Made by a program: the position numbers and the translations under genes. 64,000 bases of DNA from Bacillota bacterium (lineage in GTDB: Bacteria; Bacillota; Bacilli; Alicyclobacillales; SLC66): assembly GCA_021821085.1 (NCBI GenBank), contig JAKACV010000006.1, forward strand, positions 1 through 64,000, read 5' to 3'. Below, piece by piece: positions 7,109-64,000 of this stretch (positions are counted from its first letter, which is position 1; each line of letters starts with the position of its first letter). The notes beneath the pieces are model-generated. The model made no database searches and was not told the DNA's origin. It saw nothing but the letters and a program-made list of their open reading frames with translations.

Positions 7109-8602
7109 TTACCGAAATTGGACACGAACATCAATGCCATCGGGGCCTCGCGTATAGTCAATGCGTTCAATCAGCAGTTTCGCGAGTCGATTTCTCTCCT
7201 TGACCTCGATACGTTCTTTCCACGCGGATTTGAACGCCTCGAACCTTTGCACCCGCAGTGCGCGCGTCGGTTCGGTGCATCCATCAAGGTTATCGCGTAG
7301 TTGATAGATTTCGTTCTCCTTCTTCACAATCAGGGTCCTCAAACGCTCCAGTCGTGTGGTGTAGTCTTGTTTGGAGAGATCGCCCATCACGAACAGGTCC
7401 TGCAACCGGTTCACCCCTTCTCTCAGGCGTTCGAGTTCAGCCTCCTTCATTTGTAACAGACGTTCCGATACTAGAACGGGTTCCTCGGCATCCGCTGGCA
7501 TCTGGAGGAGTTCCGTTTCATATTGCCGCATACTTTCGAACACGGCGGTTTCTACAGGCTCGAGTTCGATGCCCGGATTGCCGCAGATGATTCCGTCGTT
7601 GCCTGGTCTTTGGCACTTCTTGACGAGGGTTCTGCCGTTTTCTTTCGGCTGAAACTTCAGCGAGGAACCGCACCGGCCACAATGGAGGAGACCGGAGAGA
7701 AAGTAGGTTCCATGCCTTGAATGTTTGGGCTGAACGCGACGCCCTTCCAAGAGGTTGATGATCTGCAGATGTTCTGCCGGTGTCTTCACGGCAGGGTGTG
7801 CGTTTTCGACGATGATCCAATTTTCTCTGGGGATCACTTTGAAGGGCGCGGTCTGACGCTTTTTATGCAGTCCACCGTTGGTTTTGCCGTACACCACGCG
7901 GCCCAAGTGAACTTCGTTGATGATGAGGCGATACAGTACACTGTCGGACCAGCGTGCTCCTTTTGGAGAGGGGACAGTGCGGCGGTTGAGCTCTGCGCAG
8001 ACCGCGCTGCAGGTTTCACCGCTTAAAATTTGATCTTTGATAAAACGATAGGTTTGGAGCTTTGCAGGGTCAACCTGCAGGCTGTGGACGTCCGCGTTGT
8101 ATACGTAGGGAAATGGGGCCGGACCGTTCGTCCAGTGGCCAAGGCGAGCGCCAATCTTCTTGCCGCGCTGGAACCGCTTTTTGATCATCCGGTACTCATA
8201 CCTGGCGAACACGCCTTCGATGTCCGTCATAAGTTCCTGGTCCTCGTCGTTCAAGTCATAGACACGTATCGGCGTGACCACGACCGTGTGGGAGCGCTTG
8301 AGAATTTTCTCGATCCGTGCGCGGTCCTCCTTGTCGCCCCGGCTGAGGCGGTCATAGTCGATTACGACGACCGCATCGTAGAAGTCGTTTTCGACGTCGC
8401 TGAGCAGGCGTTTGAATTCGGGTCGGAATTCAATGCTGTCGGAACTGCCGATTTCCCGGTAGATCACATAGCGCCAAGTGTTTTGGCGAGCGAGATCGGT
8501 GAGGGCGGTTTCGTGTTTGAGCAAAACGTCTTCCTCGCCGTCCGAATCATCGCGACTCTTGCGCAGATAGATGGCCACTTCGTAGATTTTCTTGGGCTCC
8601 AT
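7109..8602 (-). CDS. Large serine recombinase (resolvase + recombinase + zinc-ribbon)
   Basis: 497 residues in the order of large serine integrases. The resolvase domain (about 8-150) has the nucleophile Ser in YLRKSRDD and the DYDRLSRGD motif. The Recombinase domain (about 170-270) follows, then the zinc ribbon (GLLHCGRCGSSLKF ... CQRPGNDGIICGN, about 305-350) and a C-terminal coiled coil (about 375-450). ATG start with GAGGTGATACAGTC upstream on the minus strand. Such enzymes integrate and excise phages and islands. It is GC-rich (about 55%), unlike the chromosome right of 9.6 kb, so it is probably the integrase of the left-hand island. It is related to, but clearly distinct from, the recombinase at 59.7 kb. 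Confidence 0.9.
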   Translation of the reverse strand: MEPKKIYEVAIYLRKSRDDSDGEEDVLLKHETALTDLARQNTWRYVIYREIGSSDSIEFRPEFKRLLSDVENDFYDAVVVIDYDRLSRGDKEDRARIEKILKRSHTVVVTPIRVYDLNDEDQELMTDIEGVFARYEYRMIKKRFQRGKKIGARLGHWTNGPAPFPYVYNADVHSLQVDPAKLQTYRFIKDQILSGETCSAVCAELNRRTVPSPKGARWSDSVLYRLIINEVHLGRVVYGKTNGGLHKKRQTAPFKVIPRENWIIVENAHPAVKTPAEHLQIINLLEGRRVQPKHSRHGTYFLSGLLHCGRCGSSLKFQPKENGRTLVKKCQRPGNDGIICGNPGIELEPVETAVFESMRQYETELLQMPADAEEPVLVSERLLQMKEAELERLREGVNRLQDLFVMGDLSKQDYTTRLERLRTLIVKKENEIYQLRDNLDGCTEPTRALRVQRFEAFKSAWKERIEVKERNRLAKLLIERIDYTRGPDGIDVRVQFR

Positions 8603-9288: not shown

Positions 9289-11421
9289 ATGTCAAACGAT
9301 TCGCAGAGCCACAAACACACCAACCGCCTCATCCACGAAAAATCCCCATACCTTCTGCAACACGCGCACAATCCGGTCGACTGGTACCCATGGGGGCCAG
9401 AGGCGTTCCAAAAAGCAGCCCGCGAGTCGAAGGCTGTATTTCTCTCCATCGGCTATTCGTAGCCCTGCGGGGCTACGAATAGCACTATACGCTGAAAGTG
9501 GAGTACTTTACCGACCTGTCACTGGTGTCACGTTATGGAACACGAATCGTTTGAGGATGAGCAAGTCGCGGCACTGCTGAATGAATATTTTGTTGCAATT
9601 AAGGTAGATCGTGAAGAGCGACCTGATATTGACCAAATTTATATGGGAGTCTGTCAAGCGATGACCGGGCAGGGAGGATGGCCCCTCACAATTGTCATGA
9701 CACCAGATAAAGGACCTTTTTTTGCGGGAACTTATTTTCCTAAAGAACGACGATATGGTCGTGCAGGACTACTGGATCTCTTGCCGCGATTATTTGAAAT
9801 TTGGACAAAGGAACGAGATAAAGCCGAAGAAATCTCTGCAAATATTGTGGCAGAACTAAATAAGTCATCTGCTGCAAAGGAACAAAAAGAACCAGCACGC
9901 ACGGTCATTGATCGCGCAAAGAAACATTTCGTGCGATCATTTGATGAACGAAATGGGGGATTTGGGCAGGCGCCAAAGTTTCCATCTCCTCATAATTTAC
10001 TCTTTTTATTGCGTTATTATGCTATAAAAAGAGAAAAAAGGGTTTTAGATATTGTCACGATTACGCTTGATCATATGTACGCAGGCGGTATTTGGGATCA
10101 TATTGGCTATGGTTTTTCACGATATTCAACCGATGATTCGTGGCTTGTTCCTCATTTCGAAAAAATGTTATACGACAACGCTATGCTGGCGCACAGCTAT
10201 CTTGAAGCTTATCAAATCACTGGAGAATCTCTTTATAGTCAGATTGCGCGCCAAATTTTCACTTATGTTGTGCGAGATATGACAAGTCCTGATGGCGGAT
10301 TTTACTCGGCGCAAGATGCAGACTCAGAGGGGATCGAAGGAAAATTTTACGTCTTTTCACCACGTGAAATCGAGACTGTCTTAGGACGTGAACATGCTCA
10401 ATCATTTTGTCAACATTTCGCCATTACTGCACAGGGAAACTTTGAAGAAGGGAGCATCCCAAATTTACTGACCACACAAAAATCGGAGTGGTTACTCGAT
10501 CCATCGTCTTTTTTAGAACGAGATCGACAGCGAGTGTTTGCATACCGAAAGCAACGAGTTCATCCACACAAAGACGACAAGATTCTCACTTCGTGGAACG
10601 CACTCATGATCGGCGCCTTAGCAAAGGGAGCCCGCATTCTAAAAGAAGAACAGTGGTTGAAGATGGCTCTTCAAGCACGAGCGTTTATCAAACGCCATCT
10701 CGTTCGAGATGATGGGAGATTAATGGCGCGCTATCGCGACGGGGAAACAAAGCATCTTGGATATTTAGAAGATTACGCGTACTTGGCGTGGGCGGATCTT
10801 GAACTCTACGCGGCGACGTTTGACTATTCCTATATACAACAAGCGATGCTTATCATGCGAGAAGCGAAGCGTTTGTTCTATGATGAAAAACAAGGTGGAT
10901 TCTATTTTTATGGTAGTGATGGAGAAACTCTTTTGATGAGACCGAAAGAACTATACGACGGAGCCCTTCCATCAGGTAATTCAGTCGTACTCTACGTCCT
11001 TGAAAAGTTATCGCTTTTAACAGGAAGTGAAGAGTGGGGAAAATTAGCACTCCAACAGATTCACGCATTCTATGACCAGGTTGAAGAATATCCATCTGGA
11101 TATGCTCAATTTTTAATGGGATTACAACTTCATCTCGATCCATCCCAAGAAATCGTCGTTGCAGCGCATATGGCTATTGAGGCAACAAAACTACTTGATG
11201 TAATTGGAAATGCATATCTACCACAGAGCGTGATCCTTCTTCGCACGGATGAAAATCACGAAACGATTGCGCAGGACTGTACCTACACGATCGATCAAGA
11301 ACCTCAGAATCATCGCCCGACTGTCTATTTTTGTGAATCATTTGCATGTAAGACTCCGATCGTCGATCCAGATGAACTGCGAAATCTCATCATGCAGATG
11401 GCAGTAGAAAAACGTCCATGA
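9289..11421 (+). pseudogene. yyaL: YyaL/DUF255 thioredoxin-fold protein, interrupted by 54 bp
   Basis: Homologue of the YyaL/SPATA20 family (N-terminal thioredoxin-like DUF255 domain, C-terminal six-hairpin glycosidase-like domain). Codons 1-57 (SNDSQSHKH... to SIGYS; ATG 9289 after CTAGGAGGAAG) run into TAG at 9460. The conserved continuation TCHWCHVMEHESFEDE resumes in the same frame at 9514 and is open to 11421. The intervening 54 bases (9460-9513) contain TAG and TGA in frame. Removing them would give about 692 residues, the usual family length. The break falls exactly before the CxxC thioredoxin motif. The first start after it, ATG 9535, lacks a ribosome site and the motif. The 5' part is GC-rich like the island, the rest is not. 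Probably inactive unless the insert is bypassed or removed. Confidence 0.8.
9452..9513 (+). repeat. 54-bp insertion forming a perfect 14-bp-stem palindrome with yyaL codons
   Basis: The insertion (9460-9513) begins TAGCCC; together with the preceding yyaL bases it makes stem 9452-9465 / 9470-9483 around a TGCG loop. Eight bases of the left arm (GCTATTCG) are native yyaL codons, mirrored by CGAATAGC inside the insert. The last 30 bases (ACTATACGCTGAAAG...TTACCG) show no recognised element end, although they loosely recall insertion-sequence termini. Confidence 0.7.
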
Positions 11422-14668: not shown

Positions 14669-16219
14669 ATTGAACTTGAAGTTCTTCCAAATATAGAGAA
14701 ACCACCCGTCCGATGGGGGAAAGTCATTAACCAAGAAACTTGCATTGGATGTCACGCGTGTACCGTTGCTTGTAAGTCAGAACACTTGGTTCCTCTTGCC
14801 ATCAATCGAACCTATGTAAAACAAGTGGAAGTAGGTACGTATCCACAAGTAAGTCGTCAATTTCAAATTACGCGTTGCAATCAATGTGATGAAGCACCCT
14901 GCGTGCCGATTTGCCCCGTGACTGCCATGTTTAAACGTCCAGATGGCATTGTCGACTTTGATCGTGAAGTATGTATTGGCTGCAAAGCCTGCATAGCGGC
15001 CTGTCCGTATGATGCAATTCAGATCAGTCCAGACTCTCACAGTGCCGAAAAATGCAATTTTTGCGCACATCGCATTGATCAAGGTCTCGAACCAGCTTGC
15101 GTTGTCGTCTGTCCGGTAGAAGCGATTGTCGTTGGCAACCTCAATGATCAAAACAGTGAGGTACACCAACTTATTGCACGCAAAAAAGCAGATGTACGCA
15201 AACCTGAAAAAGGTACAGAACCCAAAGTGTATTATATTGGTGCGAGCGATTACACGCTAAATTCGGCAAAATCCAAATACGAAACACACCACATGTATTC
15301 CAATCAAAATGAAGGTTACCCAGTGATGGAAGAGAAACATCACCCCCAAAAACACAGTATAGCAGCTGCGCGCCTCGCATATGACGTCCCTCACAACTCA
15401 CCCTGGCATTGGGAAGTCTCCCTCTATACGTGGACAAAGTCTCTTTCCGCTGGCGTTTTTATAATTTTTGCCATTCTTACATTTGCTGGCCAGACACTGG
15501 ATTCACAATGGAACATTACAAACGCCGTCGTTGGCGGTATCTTTCTTGGACTAACAGGCATTTTGCTTATTAAAGACCTCGAACAACCCGCGCGCTTTAT
15601 TCGAATTTTTACAAGACCACAATGGAAATCATGGCTCGTACGTGGTTCTTTTATTATTGCCATTTATAGTCTCATTTTGCTTGTGCAATTTGTCTTGGGA
15701 ATCGTCAGTTTATCAGGCGGTATAACACTCGCTATATTCGGTCTCATTTTTGGTGGGTTTACTGCAATTTATACAGCATTCCTGTTCGCACAAGCAAAAG
15801 GTCGCGATTTATGGCAAAACCCTACGTTACCTCTACACCTCTTCTCACAAGCAACACTCGCTGGTGCCGCCCTGTACTCTTTGCTCGGTTTATTGTTCCC
15901 AATGTCAAGTAGTGCCCTTTCTATCGTACACATTACTCTCTTAGTTGCCCTAGCAACGCATCTCATCCTCATCGTCAGCGATTCGGTTATTCCACATTCA
16001 CTCGTTGGCGCGAGAAGAGCCGCGCATCAGATGATTTTTGGTAAATATCGCACTTACTACTGGACGGGAATTCTTGTAGGAACATTACCCCCTCTCCTCA
16101 TTGCCATTTTTACAAGCAACCTCGGTTTTATGGCAGTTGGTAGCGTGCTCGCTTTAATCGGATTAATGACCTATGAACACGCGTACGTTCAAGCTGGGCA
16201 ATCGATTCCACTTAGTTAA
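14666..16219 (+). CDS. Fused 4Fe-4S electron-transfer (DmsB/PsrB) and NrfD/PsrC membrane subunit
   Basis: 517 residues joining two normally separate subunits. Residues about 20-190 form a four-cluster ferredoxin-like module with the CxxCxxxC sets CIGCHACTVACK, CNQCDEAPCVPICP, CIGCKACIAACP and CNFCAHRIDQGLEPACVVVCP. After a His-rich linker (about 210-245), residues about 255-510 contain 7-8 hydrophobic helices typical of the NrfD/DmsC quinone-interacting anchor. It would pass electrons between the quinone pool and the catalytic subunit encoded 15 bases downstream. ATG 14666 follows AGGAGG. Confidence 0.85.
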   Translation: MIELEVLPNIEKPPVRWGKVINQETCIGCHACTVACKSEHLVPLAINRTYVKQVEVGTYPQVSRQFQITRCNQCDEAPCVPICPVTAMFKRPDGIVDFDREVCIGCKACIAACPYDAIQISPDSHSAEKCNFCAHRIDQGLEPACVVVCPVEAIVVGNLNDQNSEVHQLIARKKADVRKPEKGTEPKVYYIGASDYTLNSAKSKYETHHMYSNQNEGYPVMEEKHHPQKHSIAAARLAYDVPHNSPWHWEVSLYTWTKSLSAGVFIIFAILTFAGQTLDSQWNITNAVVGGIFLGLTGILLIKDLEQPARFIRIFTRPQWKSWLVRGSFIIAIYSLILLVQFVLGIVSLSGGITLAIFGLIFGGFTAIYTAFLFAQAKGRDLWQNPTLPLHLFSQATLAGAALYSLLGLLFPMSSSALSIVHITLLVALATHLILIVSDSVIPHSLVGARRAAHQMIFGKYRTYYWTGILVGTLPPLLIAIFTSNLGFMAVGSVLALIGLMTYEHAYVQAGQSIPLS

Positions 16220-19200: not shown

Positions 19201-19264
19201 AATGGTTGAGATTCCTCCGATTGAAAGACAGACTGCCAAAAGTACTACATTACCAACAGCCTAG
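16235..19264 (+). CDS. Molybdopterin oxidoreductase catalytic subunit (PsrA/TtrA-like)
   Basis: About 1009 residues, starting at ATG 16235 after GGAGGG. The N-terminal 4Fe-4S motif is present (CFNCESACGLL ... GRNCAKGPATINQ), followed by the bis-MGD core, with NVCSAGGRAGY as the likely Mo-ligand region (Cys). The C-terminal dinucleotide-binding domain includes HTRTNGAKWLHE, NPVWVHPEDAKRLQVQTGDEV and CSHHLGRWRLHE. This is the DMSO-reductase superfamily, polysulfide/thiosulfate/tetrathionate/arsenate-type branch; the substrate cannot be fixed from sequence. No twin-arginine signal precedes the FeS motif, so the enzyme would sit on the cytoplasmic side, unlike most PsrA/TtrA proteins. No TorD-type chaperone gene is adjacent. 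Confidence 0.85.
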   Translation: MMTREDQLRSIEGYGNLQTHPDPAKWDDWQELDAQAWPRKKYHRYELIPTVCFNCESACGLLAYIDKDSGEIRKLEGHPLHPGSRGRNCAKGPATINQVTNPERILYPLKRLGERGDGKWERTTWDVALDDIAARIRKSLLAGKQDEVVYHVGRPGEDEYTERVLKCWGIDGLSSHTNVCSAGGRAGYAFWMGYDRPSPDYANARFILMMSAHLESGHYFNPNAQRIIEAQQRGTKIAVIDTRLSNTAAKADYWLSPWPGTETSLLLAIANGIIQTDRYNRTFLHDWVNWKEFMQDREYLAELRDRGFLENIPKGREFEDFIVILKQIYQYYTPEWAQEESGVSAEMIRQITDEIVRAGTAFASNIWRNAAAGHLGGWMITRALNFLNVLVGAVGETGSMLPNSWVKFIPARHSSPTPIKVWNENHWPREYPLSFFEMSFCLPHILKKRNKRLEVYFTRVMNPVWTFPDGFNWIEMFKEPDRVGCHVTLSPVWSETSQFSDYVLPMGLAPERHDLHSYETQASQWIGFRQPVLRVSKERHGEQIRDTRDANPGEVWEENEFWIELSWRIDPDGSLGIRQYFESPYHPGEKITVLEYYQWIFENAVPGLPEAASAENLTPLAYMQKYGAFEVTKDVYALNRKPVDGDILKKATIVPEGENGENIATHEMGVWVDQAPHTANHVPVAGPFKNASGKVRAGIVVNDRAVKGFPTPSGKLEFFSTTLRDWGWPEYAIPIYPRNEIERKRMPHIVSQVHFKTIDFEHNEYILLPTFRLPMLIHTRTNGAKWLHEIAHTNPVWVHPEDAKRLQVQTGDEVKISTEIGSIVDKVWVTEGIRPGVIACSHHLGRWRLHEETGSDRWSSSLVKIKQVTKGKWQMKQIHGPTPFKSTDKDSERIWWSDGGVHQNAIFPVQPDPISGMNCWHQRVRIEKVSGIHYGEIEIDTEKAYEVFERWLEMTRPAPGPGGLYRPIWMLRVLKPHPDAYIVPEGTPGMVEIPPIERQTAKSTTLPTA

Positions 19265-19290
19265 TCAGTGTTAGCGTAACTGTAATTCTA

Positions 19291-19339
19291 AAATAAATAG
19301 CCGAATGACGAAATCTCATCGTCATTCGGCTATTTATTT
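19291..19339. terminator. Bidirectional intrinsic terminator
   Basis: A perfect 21-bp stem (19291-19311 with 19319-19339; core AGCCGAATGACGA / TCGTCATTCGGCT) with a 7-base loop, A-rich on the left and T-rich on the right. It lies between the molybdoenzyme gene and the convergent mdh gene and can serve both. Confidence 0.9.
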
Positions 19340-19363
19340 ATAACAAAAAAATTAAAAATCGAA

Positions 19364-20287
19364 TTACAGTTTACTTAATACGTTGCGGACACCCTCAGCA
19401 GATTTATGTAAAGCTGCTTTCTCCTCTGCTGTAAGTTCAATTTCATAGATTTTTTCTACACCATCTTTACCAAGCATTACAGGTACGCCTAAGAACAAAT
19501 CATTTACACCATATTCTCCTTTTACATAAGCCGAGCAAGGCATAATGCGACGCTTATCTTTAATGATCGACTCCACCATTTGAACAATGGAGGCACCAGG
19601 AGCATAATAGGCGCTCCCTGTTTTCAAATAATTAACAATCTCTGCTCCACCTTGACGTGTGCGTTGTACAATGCGATCAAGCGTTGCTTTATCAAGTAAC
19701 GTCTCTACTGGAATACCGCTCACATACGAATAGCGAGTTAATGGCACCATATCGTCGCCATGCCCACCAAGGACAAATCCCGTGACATCTTCAAACGAAA
19801 CACCAAGTTCAAGCGCCAGAAAGGTCCGGAAACGAGCGGAATCGAGAACGCCACCAAGTCCAATAATCTTTTCTGGTGCAAATCCACTCTCATGGTAGGC
19901 TACTTGTGCCATGACATCGGATGGATTCGTCACTAATACAAGCTGTGCATTAGGAGAACGTGAGGCAATCTCCTTCACAACAGAACGAACTACTTTTACA
20001 TTCGTGTCCATTAAATCGTCACGGCTCATGCCAGGTTTACGTGCAATACCCGCTGTAATCACGACTACATCTGAATCTGCGGAGTCGTCGTACGAGTTGG
20101 CGCCAGTAATAAGGCTGTCATACCCTTCAACAGGAGCTGCCTCCTGTAAATCTAACGCCTTGCCTTGCGGAACGCCTTCCACAATGTCCGTAATGACAAC
20201 GTCACCTAGTTCTTTTAAGGCCAAATAGTGAGCTACGGTAGCACCGACATTACCTGAACCAACAACAGTAATTTTTGGACGTTTCAT
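19364..20287 (-). CDS. mdh: Malate dehydrogenase
   Basis: 307 residues; NAD-dependent oxidation of malate to oxaloacetate in the TCA cycle. Rossmann motif [13 protein letters not shown] at the N terminus, cofactor Asp in VITDIVEG, substrate-loop Arg residues in [16 protein letters not shown], active-site region [15 protein letters not shown] and the catalytic His in [11 protein letters not shown]. The ARKPGM loop is the MDH type of the LDH/MDH superfamily. It lies 43 bases downstream of the TDT transporter gene on the same strand, so the two are probably one transcript. Confidence 0.95.
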
Positions 20288-59170: not shown

Positions 59171-59519
59171 CGATGAAAAATGCCACTTCTCAAAAACTCG
59201 AACATATTTTTTAATCATATTCCAAGATATATACCAGAATTTTAGAATGCCCATTTTCAATTGAAGATTAAATCACAAATCATTGATTCTTAATAAATAG
59301 ATGATAGGTTTCAAAACAATTAAAAATCTAAATAAATAATAGTAATAATCAAACTGAAATTCTCTCATTTTGTATGAAGTGCTATTAATTAAATTCAATT
59401 TTTACTCTCCTATCGAATTCTCGCAAAGTTTTATATGCTCGCTATTTACATATTATACATTCGTGAAGTATTATTGGATGCGTAAACATAAATGACTTAT
59501 ATCAGAAGGGGTGGTCTAA
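59171..59519. other. AT-rich intergenic region, no gene seen
   Basis: About 350 very AT-rich bases between the hisJ terminator and the truncated XRE gene. No ORF of credible size. Several TATTAT/TATACAT boxes near 59445-59475 could provide the promoter of the XRE gene, but none can be singled out. Confidence 0.4.
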
Positions 59520-59714
59520 GTGGAAAATGAACTTGGACGAAAAATTCGTTTGCTCAGGCACAAACGTGACCTGACTCAGCAGGAAATATCGTTTCGTACA
59601 GGGATTTCAACATCAGTACTCATGAACTCTATACATTGTTTTGGGGGCGTGGTACACTTCCGGAGAGGTGAGAACAAGTGTTCGAAAAAGAACCAAGAAG
59701 AGGGTACCCAATAG
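59520..59714 (+). pseudogene. 5' fragment of an XRE-family regulator, cut at the element junction
   Basis: GTG 59520 with GAAGGGG upstream starts a normal XRE helix-turn-helix (ENELGRKIRLLRHKRDLTQ, then QEISFRTGISTS). After about residue 32 the expected recognition helix is missing and the frame runs through unrelated residues (VLMNSIHCFGGVVHF...) to a stop at 59714, already inside the recombinase gene. The break near 59617 is 61 bases before the serine recombinase start, as expected for an attL junction in the middle of a chromosomal gene. The displaced 3' part should lie at the far end of the element, outside this window. Confidence 0.75.
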
Positions 59715-61216
59715 GACTATCGCACGTTGCTGTTTACCTTAGAAAGTCACGTGAAGACCGCGACGCAGAACAAAAGGATACCGCTCGCGGCGGAGAGTAC
59801 GATACGTTGGCACGACATCGTACAGCGCTTTTAGATCTAGCTCAACAACAGAATTATACTATTCAACGCATCTATGCAGAAGTAGTCAGTGGGGAGTCGA
59901 TTTCCGGCCGACCGATGATGACCGAACTCCTTTCCGAAGTACAAAAAGGTGCGTTCTCATCCGTGATGTGCATGGACATCGATCGCCTCGGAAGAGGCGA
60001 CATGCGCGATCAAGGAAACATCCTCGCAACCTTCAAAGAATCTCAAACCCTCATCATTACTCCAGATAAAGTGTATGACTTGGACGACGAAATGGACGAA
60101 GAGATGACGGAGTTCAAAGCCTTCTTCTCACGCAAAGAGTACAAGATCATCAGAAAGCGCCTAGAACGCGGTCGTCACCAATCAATACAGCAAGGTAAGT
60201 TTATCTACCCTCGCACGCCTTACGGCTACACTCGTGGAGAAGAGAGCGTGTTACAGATCCACCTCGAGCAAGCCAAGATCGTTCACCTGATCTTTAGTTG
60301 GTATCTCGCCGGATTTGGCCCCACGATGATCGCCAACCGGTTATCCACTCTTGGCATTCCATCACCTTTAGGCAAATCATGGTGGCCGGAACAAATCGTA
60401 TTCATGTTGCGCAACCCTATCTACCAAGGCCAAATCAGACACGGCCATCAACAACGCCATAGGCTGCGCAAAAAGCCCACAGAGATCTATAACGGCATGC
60501 ATGAGGGGATTATCTCTCCAGACGATTTCGAACGCGTACAGGGCAAAATAGGCAAGCCTACAGCTCCTGGGCCTAAGCGACCCAAGAATCCTCTTCGAGG
60601 ACTTGTGATGTGTGCATTTTGCGGGAAGCCTTATCAATACTTGCCTGTATCCAATCGACCAGATCATAGAGTGCATTGTGACACACCGTCTTGTACCGGA
60701 GGGAGCCTTAATATTTCATCACTCGAGGAGGCGATCCTCGAACAACTGCAACAACAATATGTACAGCTGAATGTGAAACCACCTGAAGTTGAGGCTGAGT
60801 GCTCTGGCGTGGATGCATTTGACTTGCAGATCGAGCAAGCGCAAAAAGAATTGAGTCAACTAGATAATCAACGACGAAATGCGTTTGATCTGCTAGAGCG
60901 ACAGGTGTATACGGTGGAGATCTTCGAAGAGCGCCAAAGAGTTCTAGGGGATAGGATGGCCAAATTATCATCCTTGTTGTCAACACTGCTAGACGAAAAG
61001 GAAAACCAAAGGAAGATGCATGATCAGAAACTGGATTGGTTGCCTTCGTTAGTCAATGTGCTCGATCTCTATCGAGACACGGAAGGACCCAATGAAAAAA
61101 ATGAGTTGCTCCGCCAGATCTTAGATCGAGCAGTTTTACGCAAAGAGAAGAGCGCCAGAGCATTCGAACTAGACCTATACCTAAGAATGCCCGCAAGGAG
61201 CGATCGCCTTGCCTAG
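59678..61216 (+). CDS. Large serine recombinase (integrase of the right-hand element)
   Basis: 512 residues. Resolvase domain with the Ser nucleophile in VAVYLRKSREDRDAE and MDIDRLGRGD (about 17-165), Recombinase domain (about 180-290, TPYGYTRGEESVLQIHLEQAKIVHLIFSWYL), zinc ribbon (GLVMCAFCGKPYQYL ... HCDTPSCTGG, about 305-345) and coiled coil (about 375-465). GTG 59678 after GGAGAGGTGAG. Outermost gene next to a truncated host gene, followed by phage-type regulators, so it is the integrase of an element extending beyond the window. Confidence 0.92.
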   Translation: MFEKEPRRGYPIGLSHVAVYLRKSREDRDAEQKDTARGGEYDTLARHRTALLDLAQQQNYTIQRIYAEVVSGESISGRPMMTELLSEVQKGAFSSVMCMDIDRLGRGDMRDQGNILATFKESQTLIITPDKVYDLDDEMDEEMTEFKAFFSRKEYKIIRKRLERGRHQSIQQGKFIYPRTPYGYTRGEESVLQIHLEQAKIVHLIFSWYLAGFGPTMIANRLSTLGIPSPLGKSWWPEQIVFMLRNPIYQGQIRHGHQQRHRLRKKPTEIYNGMHEGIISPDDFERVQGKIGKPTAPGPKRPKNPLRGLVMCAFCGKPYQYLPVSNRPDHRVHCDTPSCTGGSLNISSLEEAILEQLQQQYVQLNVKPPEVEAECSGVDAFDLQIEQAQKELSQLDNQRRNAFDLLERQVYTVEIFEERQRVLGDRMAKLSSLLSTLLDEKENQRKMHDQKLDWLPSLVNVLDLYRDTEGPNEKNELLRQILDRAVLRKEKSARAFELDLYLRMPARSDRLA

Positions 61217-61601
61217 ACGTACAGCATGGCCAGAACATCCGCACTTAGTGGGCAGGTATGAATTAGGCAGAAGGCTTAAAGAGGCTAGAGAACGTAACGG
61301 GTTCTCCCTCACGGATGTCCAACGTGCAATCGAAGTCAACCGTGGTGCTATCACATCGTATGAGATGATGCGTACTGTTCCGCCTCTTCAGTACCTTATC
61401 GAGCTATGCGCACTGTATGGCATTACGCCAAGCGCCATTTTAGATCCTGAGCCTTTGCACGGTGATGAAGATGAACTGATCCTCAGTGCATTGCATGCTC
61501 AACCTGGGCTACGAGGGCTAGTCTTGAAGATGGTGCGCGACCGATCGGTTTTTGAACAGGTCAGGGAGTGGATGGAAGTAGTAGAGATGTTGCAACAATA
61601 A
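61209..61601 (+). CDS. XRE-family transcriptional regulator
   Basis: 130 residues; HTH at about 17-70 (ELGRRLKEARERNGFSLTDVQRAIEVNRGAITSYE), with a short C-terminal helical part. TTG 61209 after AAGGAG, overlapping the recombinase stop by 8 bp, so it is translated with it and may regulate integration or excision. Confidence 0.8.
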   Translation: MPRRTAWPEHPHLVGRYELGRRLKEARERNGFSLTDVQRAIEVNRGAITSYEMMRTVPPLQYLIELCALYGITPSAILDPEPLHGDEDELILSALHAQPGLRGLVLKMVRDRSVFEQVREWMEVVEMLQQ

Positions 61602-61602
61602 G

Positions 61603-61629
61603 AAAAGGGCGCTATGTAGGCGTCCTTTT
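61603..61629. terminator. Bidirectional terminator
   Basis: AAAAGGGCGC and GCGTCCTTTT form a 10-bp stem (one G-T pair) between the XRE gene and the convergent minus-strand gene; the flanks give A and T runs for both directions. Confidence 0.75.
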
Positions 61630-61652
61630 AACGTACTTGCGTCAGAAGTCCC

Positions 61653-62306
61653 TCACCTGTTAAGATTGGCTACTTTCAAGCTATTAAGGATTTCAGTTGC
61701 AAGAGATTTGTCCCGAAAAGGAACAAAGACAGTCACGTTCCCGTAACTCGACTCGTCATCTGCTACCGTAGTGACACCATACCCATTGTAAATATCTGTG
61801 TTGGATACATACATATAGCCTTCGGATAATCCGTTGTTAAAAACGAATGTGCTGGAGGCATTTTTAGGAATAGTTTTGCTTATTTCTAATTTGCCAGGAG
61901 AAGTAAATAAACTCGTATAGGAACCTGCATCATCAGATGTGGAGAAAATTTCTTGTTCATTAGGATTAGCGCTATTTGTAAAGGTTATTATCGTTCCGTC
62001 AGCAAAATTTTGGGTAGACACCGACCAACTGGAAGGAGCTAAAACACTTGCATCATATGCCTTATAGGGGCTTAAACTTACATTTTGTGTTTGAGCAGTG
62101 TTGTTACTGTTGCTCGATCGACCGGAACCACTAGCTATATTGCCCTGAGAAGTTTCCTGGTTATTGCTCGATGGCTGCGTTGAAGCTACCGAGGTTGACG
62201 GGTAACTAATTACAGTTTTATTGCGTGAAGTTAAATACAGCGATCCGCCTACAATGCCTCCAGCTACAATTATCGATGCTCCGATCCATAACGGCCCGCT
62301 ATTCAT
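61653..62306 (-). CDS. Membrane-anchored extracellular protein, PsbP-like C-terminal domain
   Basis: 217 residues. N-terminal membrane helix (about 5-26, LWIGASIIVAGGIVGGSLYL), a Ser/Thr/Asn/Gln-rich linker (about 35-75) and a compact beta domain (APSSWSVSTQNFADGTIITFTNSANPNEQEIFS...). The last part recalls PsbP/DUF1795-like folds. It faces outside the cell. As an extra gene between integrase and repressor it may be phage/element cargo, for example surface exclusion; this is speculation from position. Confidence 0.6.
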   Translation of the reverse strand: MNSGPLWIGASIIVAGGIVGGSLYLTSRNKTVISYPSTSVASTQPSSNNQETSQGNIASGSGRSSNSNNTAQTQNVSLSPYKAYDASVLAPSSWSVSTQNFADGTIITFTNSANPNEQEIFSTSDDAGSYTSLFTSPGKLEISKTIPKNASSTFVFNNGLSEGYMYVSNTDIYNGYGVTTVADDESSYGNVTVFVPFRDKSLATEILNSLKVANLNR

Positions 62307-62341
62307 GATTTTACCTCTCTCATTTTAAGTATTCTTCTAGT

Positions 62342-62977
62342 TTAATTATCCACCTTAGCTTTTTGCTTTGAAGCTAAATTAACAATGCCTCCGATTATGT
62401 AAAAAATACCCGTAATCGTTGGTATCGTAGGCAAAAAACTTCCATAATTTCGAGATAAAAATAAAGCAAAATATCCGAGGAAAATAAATATTACGCCTGT
62501 CAGCTTAGGCTTTTCGTACGAAACGAAGCTAAGTATCAATCCTAAGATTACTAAAATAACCAAAATTAAAGTTGCCCATATAGGAGTATACGACATGAGA
62601 GGCCCGTTGTTAATAAATGAATAACCCCCAAAATTTAAAATCTCCGAAATAACTACTTCTAAAATAGAGATTGAGGAAAAAATGATTCCGAGATTTTTTA
62701 TAAATTTAAATCCAACTTTAGGTGAAGTGGGTTTTAATCTTTCGACGCCATTGACAACGCCGTTATTAGCGTCGATATAAACAGAAAAAGGTATGACGAA
62801 ATTCCCTTTAATAAACTCTACAATACATTGATATTGTAATATTCCCTCGTTGGATTTCAGAACTGTTGAAGGAATTCTGGCATTCCAATCATTTGAATTA
62901 TTATTTTCTTTAGAGAAATATTCTTTTGCAGTCGTAAAACCTATAGAAGAAGCCTCTTCTAAAGTAATTCTATCCAA
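62342..62977 (-). CDS. Membrane protein with PepSY-like N-terminal domain
   Basis: About 211 residues from TTG 62977 (GAGGTGG upstream). Residues 1-85 resemble a PepSY-like unit (TLEEASSIGFTTAKEYF ... PFSVYIDANNGVVNGVERLKP). The C-terminal part has four hydrophobic helices (IFSSISILEVVISEIL, TPIWATLILVILVILGLILSF, TGVIFIFLGYFALFL, ITGIFYIIGGIVNLA). AT-rich. It follows the same strand as the PsbP-like gene, 35 bases apart; both look like element cargo. No function assigned. Confidence 0.6.
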   Translation of the reverse strand: MDRITLEEASSIGFTTAKEYFSKENNNSNDWNARIPSTVLKSNEGILQYQCIVEFIKGNFVIPFSVYIDANNGVVNGVERLKPTSPKVGFKFIKNLGIIFSSISILEVVISEILNFGGYSFINNGPLMSYTPIWATLILVILVILGLILSFVSYEKPKLTGVIFIFLGYFALFLSRNYGSFLPTIPTITGIFYIIGGIVNLASKQKAKVDN

Positions 62978-63122
62978 TGCAACCACCTCGCTATAATAAT
63001 ATATCGCTTTCTTATATATATGCATTACACTAATGTAAACACCTAGTGTATTAAGCTGATGGGTGACATCTACCGTACTTTATTTTCCGTGGTTAATCTC
63101 CTTGGACGATTATTTTCCCATT

Positions 63123-63620
63123 TTAAACGACTCTGCTTGCTATACCTGTTTCTCTATAATCCTCACGATACAGCGTTAAACGACTCTCCATAAACGCCTG
63201 AGTCACCCCGAAGGTATCAGCTAACGATGTCGTCAGAGAACCTAAACACTCGTGCCCTTGTGCCACTCCTGCAATCATCCATGAAGGAGCTAGTGCGTAG
63301 CCCGCAAACCGGTTAGCCTGCCATTCTTGTTTGCTACGAGCATTGCATGGCAACCACGTCTGAATCCCTGCATGCAGGAGCAGATGTCCAATCTCATGAG
63401 CGATAACCACGCGGCGCTCAGGGAGAGGCAAGCGCCCGTCCACAAACGCTAAGCATTCGCCGTTGTTAATCATTGAGACCGCAGATCCAGGCCGATAAAT
63501 CACGCGCACCGGCATGACATGATCGAATACGCGAAGACTGATGTCACAAGGACGAGTGATGCCGTGTCGTTCATATAGTGTGCAGATACGTGATTCAAGA
63601 GAAGAGGATGGTTTCAGCAT
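63123..63620 (-). CDS. ImmA/IrrE-family metallopeptidase
   Basis: 165 residues. Zinc-peptidase motif HEIGHLLLH in VVIAHEIGHLLLHAG, preceded by MINNGECLAFVDGRLPLPERR and followed by the conserved EWQANRFAGYALAPSWM. Such proteins cleave the cognate phage/ICE repressor to induce the element. ATG 63620 with TGGAGG upstream; it overlaps the repressor stop in TAATG, so the two are a coupled repressor-antirepressor pair. Confidence 0.88.
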   Translation of the reverse strand: MLKPSSSLESRICTLYERHGITRPCDISLRVFDHVMPVRVIYRPGSAVSMINNGECLAFVDGRLPLPERRVVIAHEIGHLLLHAGIQTWLPCNARSKQEWQANRFAGYALAPSWMIAGVAQGHECLGSLTTSLADTFGVTQAFMESRLTLYREDYRETGIASRVV

Positions 63621-64000
63621 TAAAAATCCTCCAATTTTTTCTTGGATTCTTTTGTCTTGCTTCCGTCTTTCTCGCGTTCCCACATGTATCTTAAATCCTT
63701 CATGAGTTGCTCTTTGCGTTCGTCTGGAGCCGAATCAAAATCATAAAAGAAAGCTCCGCCAATCGAATTTTTGATCCACTCTAAGAACTCTTTTTCGAGT
63801 GATGATTCTTCGGAGTTTTCGTAATTTGAATCTTCACTGGATCTTATTAATTTACCTGAAATCAAATAATCAGTACTTACGAGATATAAAGAGGCTAGTT
63901 TTCTTAAAATTTCAGTTTCCGGTTTTCTATAATCTCTCTCGTATCCTGATAAAGTGCCAATAGAAATACCTAATAATTTACAAATCTCACTTTGCGTTTT
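63620..64000 (-). CDS. XRE-family repressor of the element (5' end outside window)
   Basis: The reading frame enters from the window edge with an HTH (KTQSEICKLLGISIGTLSGYERDYRKPETEILRKLASLYLVSTDYLISG) and continues through an acidic linker to ...KKKLEDF. This is the plan of phage/ICE repressors encoded with ImmA. The C-terminal 126 residues are visible. AT-rich compared with the integrase. It probably keeps the integrated element silent until cleaved by the ImmA-type protease. Confidence 0.85.
   Translation of the reverse strand, partial: KTQSEICKLLGISIGTLSGYERDYRKPETEILRKLASLYLVSTDYLISGKLIRSSEDSNYENSEESSLEKEFLEWIKNSIGGAFFYDFDSAPDERKEQLMKDLRYMWEREKDGSKTKESKKKLEDF

Follow-up and report, generated by a model that had tools for sequence, protein, structure and literature searches.

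A large serine-integrase element splits a conserved XRE-type regulator gene in a Bacillota genome and would restore it on excision

Mobile elements which split a host gene, and whose excision rebuilds it, have been described in several bacteria. Phage A118 of Listeria uses a large serine integrase and an attB site within comK, a transcription-factor gene; a 2-bp core sets its orientation and excision would restore the regulator (PMC3556126). For serine integrases generally, this crossover core alone determines site orientation (PMC3556126, PMC3783163). In B. subtilis, the recombinase-bearing element SP-beta splits spsM, a sigma-K-dependent sporulation gene, at attachment sites with inverted repeats and a 16-bp core, and excision restores the reading frame (PMC4191935). 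Split regulator genes are likewise rebuilt by site-specific recombination in the skin/sigK and gin/gerE systems, where the regulators act in the mother cell during sporulation and excision has been demonstrated (PMC4191935, PMC5595907).

The locus considered here bears some resemblance to each of these. It lies in a window of 64,000 nucleotides, the stretch of DNA analysed, which forms part of contig C27 (84,735 bp) of a 2.85-Mb genome assembled in 107 contigs (G000). A preliminary description proposed that a chromosomal XRE-type regulator gene is split here by a large serine-recombinase element. Both junctions, the missing 3' half and the intact gene in relatives bear this out (Table 1). Two findings would have told against it, a lack of any matching 3' fragment and a lack of the intact gene in element-free relatives; both were checked, and neither was the case.

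The open reading frame at the left junction encodes MENELGRKIRLLRHKRDLTQQEISFRTGISTS, followed by unrelated residues. Its first 30 codons resemble the N-terminus of an intact 142-residue XRE protein of Sulfoacidibacillus thermotolerans (84% over residues 1-31); this match stops at the dinucleotide AC, and the later codons belong to the element. The point of divergence lies 66 bp upstream of the integrase GTG start, not 61 bp as first described. The split falls near position 25 of the 55 in the HTH profile, within the HTH domain, and from general knowledge of the fold we take the DNA-recognition helix to lie on its 3' side. The truncated product would then lack this helix and is expected not to bind DNA.

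The remainder of the gene, anticipated at the opposite extremity of the element, was found on contig C96 of the same genome. A search of that genome for the HTH_3 family detected a lone 3' fragment (profile positions 25-55) at C96:19218, and a search with the intact protein detected residues about 30-142, at 88% identity, at C96:19206-19538. The two halves jointly span the whole protein and are 76-88% identical to relatives; when the chromosomal sides are joined at AC, they form an unbroken in-frame ORF of 139 aa, VENELGRKIRLLRHKRDLTQQEISFRTGISTPHISSIERGHRHPSLEY...SEDSF, with neither a stop nor a frameshift. Just downstream of the 3' half (C96:19660-20050; locus L005, 9660-10050) are two short membrane peptides which, by eye, resemble the YjcZ sporulation family.

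The repeated core expected at both ends of the element proved to be AC, the sole sequence common to attL (TTTCA-AC-ATCAGTACTCATGAACTCTATACATTGT) and attR (ACAATGTATAGAGTTATAGAGTACCTTT-AC-TCCCCATATCAG) at the breakpoint. Joining the element sides produces an attP in which perfect 15-bp inverted repeats form the outer arms, centred on AC; the arm AACTCTATACATTGT (59625-59639) and, at C96:19184-19198, ACAATGTATAGAGTT are exact inverses of each other. About this core 22 of 28 positions are matched, compared with a maximum of 19 in 100,000 shuffles. The deduced attB is GGGATTTCA-AC-TCCCCATATC and the deduced attP is GAGTACCTTT-AC-ATCAGTACTC. Since rejoining gives a full-length, in-frame gene, and the symmetry of attP exceeds that of every shuffle, a chance match is excluded. 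No intact attB was found elsewhere in the G000 assembly, so that nothing there points to excision in the culture sequenced, and no complete attP sites were found in the viral contigs searched.

Table 1. Coordinates of the split regulator gene, attachment-site parts and neighbouring element genes (window positions unless a contig is named).
Feature	Position	Strand	Remarks
XRE promoter-like site, sigma-A type, TTTACA-18-TATTAT	59445..59474	+	Identical in S. thermotolerans; conserved block in G001
Fusion ORF, 64 aa (64 codons)	59520..59714	+	Truncated XRE, then codons of the element attP arm
XRE regulator 5' part, 30 codons + 2 bp	59520..59611	+	Chromosomal, host side of attL
Crossover dinucleotide AC	59610..59611; C96:19212-19213	+ (window)	Common to attL and attR
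Element portion within the window	59612..64000	.	Continues to C27:84735, then C96:1-19211
Element half of attL (attP right arm)	59612..59639	+	Includes GTACTC
Candidate integrase promoter, TATACA-17-TACACT	59630..59658	+	Putative; -35 within attP arm; same spacing in G013 element
Large serine recombinase/integrase, 512 aa	59678..61216	+	GTG start; PHROG integrase family 95
XRE-type HTH protein, 130 aa	61209..61601	+	Element gene; overlaps end of integrase gene
ImmA/IrrE-type metallopeptidase	63123..63683	-	Immunity-like region of element
XRE repressor-like gene	63620-64282		Adjoins ImmA/IrrE-type gene; extends beyond window
XRE regulator 3' part	G000:C96:19214-19541		19212-19541 counted with AC core

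The host gene is widely conserved. At the thresholds used, a single orthologue per genome was found in 17 of the 18 genomes of the family and in 55 of the 59 of the order. As the preliminary description would have it, the gene is intact in element-free congeners and has the same flanking genes: in G001, thiE, the PHP, XRE and FAD-oxidase genes are contiguous, with a two-component system, thiE and a PHP-type phosphatase gene on the left and the FAD-oxidase gene on the right. A partial match in G051 (residues 32-132) was rejected as a third insertion, being a frame-disrupted gene with no element alongside. The regulator matches generic XRE/HTH models only, and no sporulation regulator family matched it at cut-off. 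Its promoter-like site is conserved among congeners, and the gene therefore looks vegetatively expressed. Once the element is integrated, this site points into the integrase gene and may influence its expression.

The integrase ORF is intact, with Resolvase, Recombinase and zinc-ribbon domains above cut-off (PF00239, PF07508, PF13408). A second large serine recombinase, with a 508-aa frame, occurs at window positions 7343-8587 on the minus strand and shares 32% identity with that at 59678. The start of C96 is exactly the 120 bp at C27:84411-84530, after which the two contigs diverge; this is the pattern left when a repeated gene, here tail-fibre-like, makes the assembly graph fork, and would tie C27 to C96. 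The element most likely comprises C27:59612-84735 and C96:1-19211, between which a short stretch may be missing, and measures at least 44.3 kb. As its ends lie on two contigs, we infer its continuity through the middle.

Among the genes of the element are those for HTH regulators, an ImmA-type peptidase, a replication initiator, a DnaC/DnaA-like ATPase (loader) and a C5 methyltransferase; for transglutaminase-like and papain-like peptidases, two glucosaminidase-like proteins and an endolysin-like protein; and for a tyrosine recombinase, an FtsK/SpoIIIE ATPase and a Replic_Relax protein. Approximately 45 element proteins were scanned with Pfam and/or PHROGs, any gap between C27 and C96 lying outside the scan; these included one tail-fibre-like gene only, and none of the capsid, portal and terminase genes that mark a tailed prophage. 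Given the lack of these hallmark genes, the mobility of the element itself is presumptive. Database searches returned no close relatives of those of its uncharacterized proteins that were queried, and no relatives of its 387-aa and 317-aa proteins, FtsK or integrase were found in viral contigs. One viral contig (L077) was discarded as a relative, as it encodes a related transglutaminase-like protein and has nothing else in common with the element. Beyond the window, C27:74018-80986 (L006/L009) encodes a run of proteins without detected relatives (387, 317 and 230 aa), together with several small proteins which by eye are of the single-helix membrane type; these may encode virion components of a virus so far undescribed and perhaps without a tail. 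The element may provisionally be called prophage-like and looks like an autonomous mobile element, not a domesticated remnant.

A second insertion was found in another genus of the same family (G013). There the XRE gene is interrupted at the same dinucleotide, AC, with its 5' half at C168:14970-15061 and its 3' half from C101:925 onward, and rejoining again yields 139 aa. The G013 integrase, 76% identical to that of the window over the 284 residues present on its contig, adjoins attR and points away from it. Read from the integrase, the attP core is GT in G013 and AC in the window element. The two elements occupy the same attB in opposite orientations, which, with these cores, is what the core-dinucleotide rule predicts. 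Both also have the candidate integrase promoter, its -35 box placed in the attP arm. On the same G013 contig (C168, L059), two 109-bp copies of the XRE 5' end and attL arm (10621-10729 and 14985-15093; 97% identical) flank 4.3 kb of host-like genes, by eye a GntR-type regulator, RraA-like, nitrilase-like and MFS genes.

A further assembly, G014, contains an attL-like junction (L070, C43:1-132) as well as an intact XRE gene (L060, C10:24419-24550), on contigs with exactly 120 identical bp in common. Near the core the junction carries a single-base difference, and no attR partner was found for it. HicAB-like genes lie beside it. This assembly may represent a mixed population, excised and integrated, with a remnant or duplication as likely, and the junction was left out of the evidence.

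We propose that the element was inserted by its own large serine integrase, which would recombine attP with attB, inside the conserved XRE gene, at the dinucleotide AC. Next to the integrase gene there would thereby remain the promoter, ribosome-binding site and first 30 codons; the rest of the coding sequence would lie beyond the far end of the element, and an integrated cell would make no working regulator. Excision by the integrase and a directionality factor would restore the gene exactly and so, as the preliminary description foresaw, rebuild a transcription factor. No directionality factor was identified; the 130-aa XRE-type protein is a candidate either for this role or for that of repressor. 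On sequence grounds, integration into the regulator gene is well established, and restoration would follow from the same junctions; to the model of integration with exact restoration we assign a probability of about 0.85. Excision would accompany mobilisation of the element and not a sporulation programme, although this timing, taken alone, is held to be no more than rather probable.

The preliminary description suggested excision timed by sporulation, after the manner of skin or SP-beta. Consistent with such a programme are a large serine recombinase beside a split gene, the exactness of its in-frame restoration, and the position of the locus in relatives a few kb from dacB-spmA-spmB-resDE-type genes (named by eye from translations). 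Yet the XRE promoter is of a conserved sigma-A type, the regulator occurs in nearly all relatives, other relatives lack such a split, and the element appears autonomous. In the known examples the interrupted gene belongs to mother-cell sporulation (PMC4191935, PMC5595907); no sporulation role was found for this one. The opposite orientations of the two elements, one with its integrase away from the XRE promoter, also argue against a shared regulatory design, nothing found ties excision to spore formation, and such timing seems to us very unlikely. Excision might instead respond to growth or stress, as in active lysogeny of the A118/comK kind, turning the regulator on reversibly while the element is kept. 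The element would then be an on/off switch, by regulated excision, of a near-universal regulator of the order, with related elements in two genera using the same attB, one with a reversed, orientation-flipping core. Such a switch would be in keeping with the layout shared with A118, in which a serine integrase has its attB in a transcription-factor gene (PMC3556126); loss of a near-universal regulator may be costly to the cell unless relieved, and G014 could be a mixed population. As the G000 assembly shows no direct sign of excision, however, and the imperfect, unpartnered G014 junction is equally explicable as a remnant or duplication, we think a switch unlikely.

Absence of attB from the G000 assembly would also fit an integrase that landed once, leaving a dead element in a dispensable and permanently broken regulator gene, as would a near-complete relative (G053, 97%) with no orthologue at the threshold used. 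Against this stand the intact integrase with all its domains, the intact att sites, and gene halves which remain conserved and rejoinable; either the insertion is therefore recent or selection still acts on the gene by way of excision. We consider a dead element quite unlikely. In an assembly of 107 contigs, the placing of the two halves on separate contigs might suggest an artefact, or an unrelated rearrangement mimicking insertion, but a common 2-bp core, a symmetric attP and an in-frame product, repeated in another genus, make this scarcely credible.

Integration with exact restoration has its closest analogue in A118 of Listeria, which appears to be a closer parallel and a better precedent than skin or SP-beta. 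An element of the A118/comK type is recognizable by the domains of its integrase, by a short 2-bp core in attL and attR with a symmetric attP around it, and by an attB gene which is intact in relatives and reconstituted in frame by the rejoined flanks; all of these were found here. The present host belongs to another order, however, its gene is XRE-type and not comK, excision is predicted, and the element has no recognisable capsid, portal or terminase genes. With SP-beta the element shares inverted repeats at its attachment sites, but a 2-bp core and a sigma-A-like promoter take the place of the 16-bp core and sigma-K dependence of spsM. Unlike sigK and gerE, the regulator looks vegetatively expressed.

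The locus adds a new, delimited serine integrase with deduced attP and attB sites. Together, the two related integrases, which share an attB with opposite orientations and core dinucleotides, would provide a natural counterpart to the rule established experimentally with Bxb1, phiC31 and A118. The insertions also single out a core XRE regulator, not otherwise studied, as a site of repeated attachment in these Bacillota; its function could be read from a comparison of lysogens with cured strains.
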